NCBI RefSeq assembly: GCF_009712475.1 | Contig: NZ_VCJO01000005.1 | Location: forward strand, 124,001-188,000 | DNA: 64,000 nucleotides | DNA from: Micromonospora sp. CP22 | GTDB taxonomy: Bacteria; Actinomycetota; Actinomycetes; Mycobacteriales; Micromonosporaceae | Reading direction: 5' to 3' | Shown here: piece after piece, positions 38,010-61,676 of the stretch | Layout: each line of letters opens with the position of its first letter | Numbering within the stretch: the stretch's first letter is position 1 | Notes under the pieces: model-generated | What the model saw: only the letters and a program-made list of their open reading frames with translations | Told to the model about the DNA's origin: nothing | Databases searched by the model: none | Translations under genes and position numbers: made by a program

Positions 38010-38070
38010 GTTGACCAAGAGCTTTTGGTCGAGAAACCGCCCTGCGGGTGACGAAAACTTCTTGATCAAC
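38010..38070. repeat. hairpin repeat, TTGATCAAGAAG family (diverged copy)
   Basis: Arms 38010-38032 and 38048-38070 are imperfect inverted copies that contain CTTGATCAAC at the right side. It is related in sequence to the element at 42734-42794, and lies between convergent genes, where it can terminate both. The right arm is nearly identical to that of the second copy. Confidence 0.7.
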
Positions 38071-42733: not shown

Positions 42734-42794
42734 GTTGATCAAGAAGTTTTGGTCAGAATCCACGCCGGTTCCTGACCAAAACTTCTTGATCAAC
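42734..42794. repeat. hairpin repeat, TTGATCAAGAAG family (perfect 23-bp arms)
   Basis: Arms 42734-42756 and 42772-42794 are perfect inverted copies of 23 bp around a 15-nt loop. The arm includes GTTGATCAAGAAG. A diverged copy is at 38010-38070. The TTGA of the right arm supplies the stop codon of the 77-residue ORF, so the element may serve as a terminator. Confidence 0.85.
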
Positions 42795-43023
42795 GCGAGT
42801 GGGGGCGGGGGGTTAGTTCGCGCCAGGTGTCGGTGCCGTGGAGCAGTGCGCGGATGGTCTCTTCGGCCTCGTCGACGGTGTCGTACTCGTAGAACCGGGA
42901 GACGCCCTCGGCGCCGCCGGCCCGCTGCTCGACGAACCATCGGTCGGCATCCGTTCGGAGGAAGACGTCCCGCCGGGCCAGTCGCCCCCATTTCCCGTTC
43001 CACCAGTGCTTTCGCTGCTCCAT
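42790..43023 (-). CDS. 77-residue protein under LexA box control
   Basis: Starts MEQRKHWWNGKWGRLARRDV, then FLRTDADRWFVEQRAGGAEG and a helical end with TVDEAEETIRALL. The pattern W...RDV.L...D.RW.VE.R.GG..G.S..Y is a small actinobacterial family of unknown function (recalled). It is soluble and basic at the start. The stop lies in the hairpin repeat. A perfect SOS box 10-31 nt upstream predicts DNA-damage induction. No known SOS protein matches it. Confidence 0.75.
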   Translation of the reverse strand: MEQRKHWWNGKWGRLARRDVFLRTDADRWFVEQRAGGAEGVSRFYEYDTVDEAEETIRALLHGTDTWRELTPRPHSR

Positions 43024-43032
43024 GGCGGGACT

Positions 43033-43054
43033 CTATCGAACATCTGTTCGATAG
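43033..43054. promoter_or_regulatory. perfect LexA/SOS box
   Basis: CGAAC-ATCT-GTTCG (43037-43050) matches the actinobacterial SOS consensus, extended by matching bases to a 22-bp palindrome. It is 10-31 nt upstream of the 77-residue ORF start. Repression by LexA and induction on DNA damage are expected. Confidence 0.85.
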
Positions 43055-43056
43055 GA

Positions 43057-43089
43057 GCAGGCCCCTGCGGGATTCCCGCCGGAGCCTGC
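43057..43089 (-). terminator. hairpin downstream of mscL
   Basis: 16-bp arms (14 matches) around a very short loop, beginning GCAGGC and ending GCCTGC, 17 nt after the mscL stop on the minus strand. A likely rho-independent terminator without a T-tract; it separates mscL from the SOS-boxed gene. Confidence 0.6.
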
Positions 43090-43105
43090 CTGGGTGTTGC
43101 CGGTT

Positions 43106-43567
43106 TCAGCGCGCGGCGGGCGGTTCGTCCCGACGGCCGAGGACGTCGTCCAGTGCCCCGCGCTGCTGGGCCGGGGTGGTCCGGCCGGCGGCGACGAGCG
43201 CGTCCCGGATCTCGGTGAGCAGCTTGACCTCCTCGCTCGGCGCGGCCGGCGGCGGCTCCTCGCCCCGCTTGCGGCGCTCCGCGAGCCTGTTCATCGGGTA
43301 GACGACCAGGAAGTATAGCGCGGCGGCGGTGAGCAGGAAGGTGATCAACGCGTTGAGGAAGACGCCCCAGGTGACGGGGTTGTCCTTTCCGAGACTGAAC
43401 TGGGCCCCGTCGCCGGCCGGGCCGGTGCCGATCAGGTTGATGATCGGCTGGAGGAACGAGTCGGTGAAGGTTGTGACCAGGCCGGTGAAGGCGGCGCCGA
43501 TGACGATACCGACCGCGAGGTCGACGACGTTGCCGCGCATGATGAAGTCTTTGAAGCCCTTGAGCAT
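43106..43567 (-). CDS. mscL: large-conductance mechanosensitive channel
   Basis: 153 residues. MLKGFKDFIMRGNVVDLAVG is the conserved N-terminal helix and first membrane segment. ALITFLLTAAALYFLVVYPMNRL is the second, with EVKLLTEIRDAL the C-terminal helical bundle. Opens under membrane tension to release solutes during hypo-osmotic shock. Length is typical. It appears monocistronic. Confidence 0.97.
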   Translation of the reverse strand: MLKGFKDFIMRGNVVDLAVGIVIGAAFTGLVTTFTDSFLQPIINLIGTGPAGDGAQFSLGKDNPVTWGVFLNALITFLLTAAALYFLVVYPMNRLAERRKRGEEPPPAAPSEEVKLLTEIRDALVAAGRTTPAQQRGALDDVLGRRDEPPAAR

Positions 43568-60247: not shown

Positions 60248-60306
60248 GGCGCCACGTTACCGGCCACGGCGGCCTGTGGTGCGGCGCAATTCTGCACCGG
60301 ATTGTT

Positions 60307-60320
60307 CGAACACATGTACG
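60307..60320. promoter_or_regulatory. LexA-box-like site, one mismatch
   Basis: CGAAC-ACAT-GTACG differs from the SOS consensus at one base (GTACG for GTTCG), 10-23 nt upstream of the flavoprotein start. Weak candidate only. Confidence 0.25.
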
Positions 60321-60329
60321 ATCGCCGAC

Positions 60330-61676
60330 ATGGTGCCACCCCCTTCCACCGGTACGCCCGGTGTCCGCGAGATCACCCGTCGGCTGGCCGAGATCTGCGG
60401 TCCGCGCTTCGCCCGCCTCGCCGGCCCTGCCGACGAGGTGGCCGGGAGCACGGCCCGTTGGGTCGCGGTGCCGGGCGGCCCGCACGCCGCCGCCGAGGTG
60501 CTGCGGCTGGCCGCCGGGCACGACCTGACCGTGGTGCCCCGAGGAGCGGGCACGAAGATCGATTGGGGTGCGCCCCCCGAGCGGGTCGACATCATGCTCG
60601 ACACCGGGAGACTGGCCGGCATCGGCCACCGGTCGCCGGGTCGGGGCACCGCCGAGATCGGTGCCGGTACTCCGCTGCGCGCGGTACAGGCCACCCTGGA
60701 GCGCACCGGTCAGCGGCTCGCGTTGGACGCCCCCTCACCCGGCGCGACCCTGGGCGGGGTGCTGGCGGCGGACGAGGCCGGTCCGCTGCGTCACCGCCAC
60801 GGCACCGCCTGCGATCAACTCGTCGGGCTGCGTTATCTGGCCGCCGATGGTGAGCTGGCCGAGGCGGGTGGTGGGGCGGCGGGGCTGGCCGAGGCGCGCC
60901 TGCTCTGCGGTTCGGAGGGGGCGCTCGGGGTGCTGGTCAGCGCGACGCTGCGGGTGCAGGCGGTGCCGGCCGCCCGGGTGTGGGTGACCCGGCCGGTGTG
61001 GACGCCGCTTGAGGTGCACGATCTGATCGGGGCGGTGCTCGCCGCTCGGCTCGATCCGGCGGCGATCGAACTCGACCTGCCGGTCGGCACCGGCTGCCGA
61101 CCCCAGCGGGACCGCCGCGCCGAGTCGATGGCGATGCACCCGTCGATGACCGGGCGTGTGCCGACCGGGCCGACGGGCACCGGTTCGCTGGTGGTGCTGC
61201 TGGAGGGCGGTCCCGCCGAGGTGGCCGAGCGCACCGACCGACTGCTCGACATCTTCGGCTCCCGTTCGACGGTCGCGCGGACAGCGCCCGCGTGGTGGCG
61301 CAGCTACCCGTTCGCGCCCGGCGACACGGCGTTGCGGCTGGAGGTGCCGATAACCGACCTGCACGCCGCCGTCTACGCCCTGCGTGACGCGGCCGGTGGG
61401 CCGGTGCCGGTCCGTGGTTCGGCCGGGCTCGGCGTGGTGCACGCCGCCCTGCCCGGGTCGCTGCCGCCGGGGCGGGTCGCGTCGATCCTGGCCGCGGTGC
61501 GCAGCGTGCTGCTCGCCCGGCAGGGCCGCTGTGTGGTGCTCGCCGCCCCGCCCGCCGTGCGACACGGCGTCGACCTGTGGGGCGAGCGGGCCGACCTGGC
61601 CCACCTGCGCGCCGTGAAGCAACACCTCGACCCGACCCACCGCCTCGCGCCCGGCCGCCTCCCCGGTGGTCTCTGA
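60330..61676 (+). CDS. FAD-binding oxidoreductase, GlcE/D-lactate dehydrogenase-like
   Basis: 448 residues from ATG 60330. The PCMH-type FAD domain is clear: VPRGAGTKIDWGAPPERVDI, DAPSPGATLGGVLAADEAG and GSEGALGVLVSATLRV (up to about 220). A second half with a small alpha/beta domain follows, shorter than GlcD. It resembles the glycolate oxidase GlcE subunit or related alkyl-DHAP/D-2-hydroxyacid dehydrogenases. No partner subunits are nearby. Ends 6 nt before a convergent phosphatase gene. Confidence 0.82.
   Translation: MVPPPSTGTPGVREITRRLAEICGPRFARLAGPADEVAGSTARWVAVPGGPHAAAEVLRLAAGHDLTVVPRGAGTKIDWGAPPERVDIMLDTGRLAGIGHRSPGRGTAEIGAGTPLRAVQATLERTGQRLALDAPSPGATLGGVLAADEAGPLRHRHGTACDQLVGLRYLAADGELAEAGGGAAGLAEARLLCGSEGALGVLVSATLRVQAVPAARVWVTRPVWTPLEVHDLIGAVLAARLDPAAIELDLPVGTGCRPQRDRRAESMAMHPSMTGRVPTGPTGTGSLVVLLEGGPAEVAERTDRLLDIFGSRSTVARTAPAWWRSYPFAPGDTALRLEVPITDLHAAVYALRDAAGGPVPVRGSAGLGVVHAALPGSLPPGRVASILAAVRSVLLARQGRCVVLAAPPAVRHGVDLWGERADLAHLRAVKQHLDPTHRLAPGRLPGGL

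Follow-up and report, generated by a model that had tools for sequence, protein, structure and literature searches.

A small reading frame that lies directly downstream of a perfect palindrome of the LexA/SOS type poses two questions: whether the gene belongs to the SOS regulon of its host, and what its product might do there. The locus was studied within a stretch of 64,000 nucleotides (the window), which corresponds to C50:124001-188000 of the 5.85-Mb genome G000. The features of the locus are as follows.

42735..42793, no strand assigned: long inverted repeat on the downstream side of the reading frame, member of a family dispersed in this genome
42790..43023, minus strand: 77-aa reading frame (77 codons) with its ATG at 43023, predicted to be controlled by the SOS box and to adopt a WGR-like beta4-alpha fold
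43030..43035, minus strand: predicted -10 element TAGAGT of a leaderless-type promoter, ending 6 nt before the ATG
43033..43054, no strand assigned: 22-bp palindrome CTATCGAACATCTGTTCGATAG, containing the LexA/SOS box with its 16-bp core TCGAACATCTGTTCGA at 43036-43051
43056..43090, minus strand: GC-rich hairpin separating mscL from the SOS box, found by folding, with similar inverted repeats seen by eye in close relatives
43106..43567, minus strand: reading frame of 153 aa, recognized as and presumed to be mscL (large-conductance mechanosensitive channel), the same-strand upstream neighbour

The gene, its family and its neighbours

As judged from codon comparisons, the 77-aa reading frame is a real coding gene under purifying selection, with pN/pS values of 0.19–0.22. 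The higher value was obtained for pairs that include the window and the lower one over 600 random pairs, both computed on codons 1–70 of 81 distinct sequences, i.e. the window and 80 named relatives. A contig scan yielded 196 relatives, the best 80 of which were analysed and the other 116 left out. These best 80 of 196 loci belong to Micromonospora, Salinispora, Verrucosispora, Phytohabitans, Plantactinospora and one unclassified Micromonosporaceae strain, all of which we take to be Micromonosporaceae; the closest named relatives by the encoded protein are Micromonospora species. In the protein search, homologues were detected in 155 of 200 Micromonosporaceae genomes, and 38 genomes of the same genus are listed with a match (the one in G175 being distant only); the list leaves out 25 genomes that gave no match. 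A class-wide profile search of 394 genomes gave at least three matches, all within the genus of the window, a number that may be an undercount because 14 candidates per genome were scored. No tblastn match to the protein was found in the phage and plasmid collections. A phage or plasmid origin was rejected on this ground; the sole IMG/VR candidate (L204) covered 28 residues at 43% and was judged spurious from its sequence. A lineage-specific SOS gene is the best explanation for what was found.

Across 51 aligned homologues M1, W8, N9, R17, D19, G36, G40, A53, W67 and R68 are invariant, and H6, W7, G10, G13, V20, W29, V31, E32, R34 and G37 are conserved in at least 90%; the W..RDV..RW.VE.R.GG pattern that had been read from the single sequence was kept throughout this set. 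The net charge is 0, with +5 over residues 1–24 and −6 over residues 45–70, and no transmembrane segment was detected (the best 19-residue Kyte-Doolittle mean is −0.35). Searches of Pfam, NCBIfam and PHROGs gave no convincing family match, in line with the original prediction that this is not one of the known SOS genes. The PHROGs matches were scattered and weak, the best (0.0021) being to a family without a function name that was matched by 3 of the 51 members. DUF6504 (PF20114), a domain that sits by translesion polymerase genes, was considered and dropped: one of the 51 members matched it at E 0.069, and no protein of the own genome scored above the Pfam cut-off.

The presumed mscL lies directly upstream on the same strand at 75 of the 80 named loci (best 80 of 196), and at 19 of the 20 loci from other genera (L046–L065). 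At one of the latter, L046 (G001:C1:352404-355628), the boxed small gene has the opposite orientation with respect to mscL and the remaining conserved neighbours. In the remaining five of the 80, all Salinispora (L092, L094, L095, L096 and L104), the 5 kb of upstream sequence contain no mscL, whereas the small gene and its box are kept; the box therefore belongs to the small gene and not to mscL. The loss of mscL from Salinispora has been described in the literature. With a hairpin upstream and a long inverted repeat downstream, the gene is probably transcribed alone. The hairpin at 43056..43090 has no T-run and is a putative terminator; the inverted repeat at 42735..42793 may act as a terminator. 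The GATCAAGAAGTTTTGGTC arms of this repeat (also at about 38050-38069) had 34 forward and 34 reverse matches in the genome with up to 1 mismatch allowed, against 0 for the control, and the repeat is a dispersed palindromic element. None of five tested neighbours was found at the diverged homologues L066–L087, and the neighbours present there gave no functional clue; their reading frames were picked by a crude codon-position GC rule, which makes the survey weak evidence because the same rule missed mscL at the window locus.

The box and the promoter it would control

The original prediction described a perfect SOS box, CGAAC-ATCT-GTTCG, extended to a 22-bp palindrome 10–31 nt before the reading frame, and this is exact in the sequence: the palindrome at 43033-43054 has 9-bp arms and a 4-nt spacer, ends 10 nt and begins 31 nt before the ATG at 43023, and has no mismatch. 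Its outer extension belongs partly to the predicted promoter. TAGAGT (43030-43035), conserved as a −10-like element, abuts the 16-bp core and overlaps the outer palindrome by 3 bp; read along the coding strand, the right-hand arm passes into this element. Relatives show no conservation of the base that flanks the left-hand arm of the 16-mer.

Within the 64-kb window CGAACNNNNGTTCG occurs once free of mismatches, and 10 times with at most one mismatch, where 2.88 are expected by chance. The core TCGAACnnnnGTTCGA has two mismatch-free sites in the 5.85-Mb genome, one of them at the gene studied here. The relaxed pattern TCGWACnnnnGTWCGA has 6 sites in the own genome, as compared to 0 for the reversed control pattern, and at least one site in 60 of 61 family genomes; the control is present in some of these 61, up to 8 times in G042. 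LexA itself is encoded at C33:223854 (PF01726 match of 96.6 bits, above the cut-off), and upstream of the lexA coding region there are two box-like sites with two mismatches each.

Conservation of the box was followed across relatives; distances give the position of the first base of the 14-mer relative to the start codon. In all 80 named relatives (best 80 of 196) the box lies at −27 or −28. It reads CG[AT]AC....GT[TA]CG at 75 of them (−27 in 61, −28 in 14), including 24 with a perfect CGAAC....GTTCG, and in the remaining five it occupies the same position with one mismatch at an outer base. The half-site columns carry 1.7–2.0 bits, except for the A/T position (1.07), whereas the columns 61–100 nt upstream of the box average 0.45 bits; the region 6–60 nt upstream of it, which includes the hairpin, averages 1.00. 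Absence of the box in close relatives that keep the gene had been named beforehand as evidence against SOS control; the box was kept in 80/80. At 72 further loci (30 returned by the search, 40 chosen across genera and two own paralogues; the set overlaps in species with the 80) a box with at most two mismatches was found at −22 to −30 in 66. The boxed loci include diverged homologues at other genomic places, 16 of the 22 diverged homologues L066–L087 keeping it. The six loci that lack a box (L079, L080, L081, L082, L085 and L086, the last at G000:C12:47330-47542) form one paralogous subfamily whose proteins start with V-R-x-E-R-H-W-W-N-G. Similar promoter-like sequence, GCTATA or GCTGTA, was seen by eye before their starts, which suggests a different regulator.

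A TAnnnT hexamer precedes the start in all 80 named relatives, ending 6 nt before it in 65 and 7 nt in 15, and a Shine-Dalgarno-like motif (five motifs, last 20 nt before the start) was found in none of the 80. A −10-like hexamer just before the start together with the lack of a Shine-Dalgarno sequence is the usual layout of leaderless actinobacterial genes. The natural reading of the two observations is thus a LexA-repressed leaderless promoter, an architecture that the sequence comparison supports for the predicted promoter; LexA bound to its core, which immediately precedes the −10-like element, would be expected to block RNA polymerase.

Other genes of the own genome carry comparable sites; their distances refer to the first base of the 16-mer, which is at −28 for the gene studied here. 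A box TCGAACACATGTACGA at 60306-60321 of the window lies at −24 from the ATG at 60330 of a gene named by eye as an FAD-binding, glycolate-oxidase-like oxidase, and a TACGAT ends 7 nt before that ATG; this is likely another leaderless SOS gene. At L183 (3001-3028; G000:C50:13601) a perfect SOS box with its 16-mer at −28 precedes a gene that by eye looks PNPOx-like (pyridoxamine-oxidase-like) and that is oriented divergently from one that by eye looks dcd-like; the box layout is the same as at the studied gene. The own paralogue L087 has its box at −24, and the box at L180 (G000:C5:59342-59357) is identical to it, spacer included. A palindromic TCGTACnnnnGTACGA was found at L181 (1009-1024; G000:C11:1009), at −54 of a gene that looks DprA-like by eye.

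The layout has much in common with the LexA/SOS regulon of Streptomyces venezuelae as given in the available text of PMC9380542: a TCGAAC-N4-GTTC-type core (several boxes of Table 1), a position near the start codon and a LexA encoded in the same genome. In contrast to that regulon, homologues of the present gene were found only in the family of the window among 394 genomes of the class, with 14 candidates scored per genome. The same text bears on the possibility that the box arose by chance or is the target of another regulator, in which case the gene would not be damage-inducible. Not every LexA site responds, because 175 of 270 putative regulatory LexA sites in S. venezuelae were reported with differentially expressed units after mitomycin C (PMC9380542, available text). 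Either version of this possibility is nevertheless hard to reconcile with a box at a fixed distance in 80/80 relatives, with half-site columns of much higher information content than the sequence further upstream, and with the excess of TCGWACnnnnGTWCGA sites over the control, and we consider this explanation very improbable. Judging from the sequence comparisons, the gene is very probably under a genuine SOS box and predicted with high confidence to be under LexA control.

The predicted fold and the WGR domain

Structures were predicted with AlphaFold for the window protein (pLDDT 87.1, pTM 0.76) and for the boxless own-genome paralogue L086 (pLDDT 90.7, pTM 0.79), which is 41% identical to it. 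Both models consist of a four-stranded sheet and one main helix; they are not independent, because the alignment behind the first model contains every one of the 30 sequences used for the second. In the VIA re-alignment rows 1–8 for the window protein were PARP WGR domains, with a best Z of 6.8 (71 residues, rmsd 2.6), and for L086 these domains filled rows 1–12, with a best Z of 6.7 (72 residues, rmsd 2.9). A Z below 8, as here, can reflect no more than a common arrangement, and a SAGA subunit, an AP2 domain, an MMO inhibitory subunit and YkuJ followed in these lists at Z 5.2–6.1 (5.7–6.1 in the list for the window protein). In the viral structure library an Agrobacterium phage 'WGR domain-containing protein' ranked fourth (TM 0.69/0.56, rmsd 2.5, E 0.053) among mostly unnamed proteins. 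Three Foldseek searches gave no match at E≤0.001, the top PDB row being another protein, 2ra8. The sole result of the sequence search against solved structures, COMPASS BRE2, was set aside at E 0.58 and 0.82.

Profile comparison (hhalign) with an alignment of bacterial WGR domains scored 21.0, whereas the highest-scoring of 60 column shuffles reached 14.5; the register is the expected one, and the probability is 12.8% over 28 columns. In that register the W/Y-G-R triad before the G-x-x-G turn is absent, Q33-R34-A35 standing opposite Y-G-R; a literal WGR occurs at residues 12–14 of the window protein in a different loop. The Pfam WGR profile (PF05406) had no match at E≤1 among the 51 members scanned. 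The predicted beta4-alpha fold may correspond to the WGR domain (PF05406; PARP1/2/3, bacterial WGR proteins, E. coli MolR, Deinococcus DR2173) over nearly its whole length, and the G-x-x-G turn followed by a strand and the helix is in the same register; unlike WGR domains, the window protein lacks the canonical triad, the Pfam match and a high profile probability, and is a free-standing protein of 77 aa. On the strength of the models a WGR-like fold is probable; given the Z below 8, the weak profile match and the missing triad, we call the protein WGR-like and do not file it as a WGR domain.

In human repair proteins the WGR domain holds on to the ends of broken DNA. In the available text on PARP2, W138-G139-R140 is the conserved motif and Y188 recognizes the 5'-phosphate (PMC7608914). 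WGR proteins under damage regulators have been reported: DR2173 of Deinococcus and, as reported in the same source, E. coli MolR (PMC8533742, available text). For the WGR protein of the own genome (L199) no box-like site was found within 300 nt upstream of the start.

Possible functions of the product

The role that we favour, at about even chances, is that of a lineage-specific SOS gene for a soluble protein with a WGR-like fold, probably acting at damaged DNA. LexA would sit on the 16-bp box upstream of the −10 element and block the leaderless promoter; upon DNA damage, RecA-stimulated cleavage of LexA would free the promoter, and a short mRNA beginning at or next to the ATG would be made. 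The product, soluble and about 75 residues long, would have a WGR-like four-stranded sheet and one helix. Its working surface is likely formed by the conserved aromatic and basic strand and loop at the N-terminus (K/R-H-W-W-N-G-x-W-G-R-x-x-R-R-D), with W29, E32, R34 and the GG..G turn. With this surface it would most likely bind DNA that is damaged or broken, or else a repair complex assembled there, and protect, mark or bridge it during the SOS response. We infer LexA binding and damage induction for the gene, as well as DNA binding for the product; that the window protein itself contacts DNA or DNA ends is, on the models, a tentative proposal that we hold with less than even confidence.

The original prediction raised the possibility of a new damage-induced repair or cell-division factor, which gives a direction only: the resemblance of the model to WGR domains speaks for a role connected with DNA, and the lack of a membrane segment is against a membrane-anchored division inhibitor. 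SulA and YneA are SOS cell-division inhibitors, and the window gene resembles these and SosA in being small and in its presumed SOS control. Unlike the membrane-anchored inhibitors, its product has no membrane segment (SulA itself is soluble), and the curated libraries searched gave no convincing match for the window protein. The aromatic and basic N-terminus, the absence of a membrane segment, the presumed damage control and the WGR-like fold together favour binding to DNA or to a repair complex over a membrane-bound division inhibitor. A soluble checkpoint protein, induced with the regulon and transiently halting septation or hyphal growth through a division or replication protein and not through DNA, is a further option. 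Small SOS genes do include division inhibitors, e.g. SosA of Staphylococcus aureus (PMC6851548, available text), and the window protein is small and soluble with a highly conserved N-terminal motif; against this role stand the missing transmembrane segment, unlike the small membrane-bound inhibitors (PMC6051672, available text), and the resemblance of the predicted fold to DNA-binding WGR domains, and we regard it as unlikely.

A slightly better prospect, still well short of even, is an accessory protein that binds a partner in SOS repair (e.g. RecA, a translesion polymerase or the sliding clamp) and uses the WGR-like fold as a protein-interaction module. Similarity of fold shows no function, the net charge is neutral with an acidic C-terminal half, and a protein might dock at the WWNG loop and the invariant W67-R68. 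Against this role, no conserved operon partner was seen (the gene follows mscL in the main group, but Salinispora keeps it after losing mscL), and the neighbours of the diverged homologues, partly identified by the crude rule for reading frames, are varied. In a bolder version of the favoured DNA-directed role, to which we give little credence, Micromonosporaceae would have evolved a family, present in several copies, of stand-alone WGR-like proteins that are induced in the SOS response, have no catalytic domain and hold broken DNA ends by clamping or bridging them.

The DNA-damage response of Micromonosporaceae seems hardly described. Members of this family make DNA-cleaving antibiotics such as enediynes. 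Among titles and the beginnings of abstracts of the full-text literature, no study of the LexA regulon of Micromonospora, Micromonosporaceae or Salinispora was seen, and no description of the 77-aa gene. The leaderless operator layout suggests a rule for finding more of the Micromonosporaceae LexA regulon. A conserved gene that carries one of only two perfect TCGAACnnnnGTTCGA boxes and belongs to no known family offers a short, testable route to a new SOS effector, and the modelled fold of its 77-aa product hints towards break recognition. If the family does consist of SOS-induced proteins that hold broken ends, it would be the bacterial equivalent of the part of PARP that senses breaks, and would bind through a non-canonical WWNG/RRD surface of its own.
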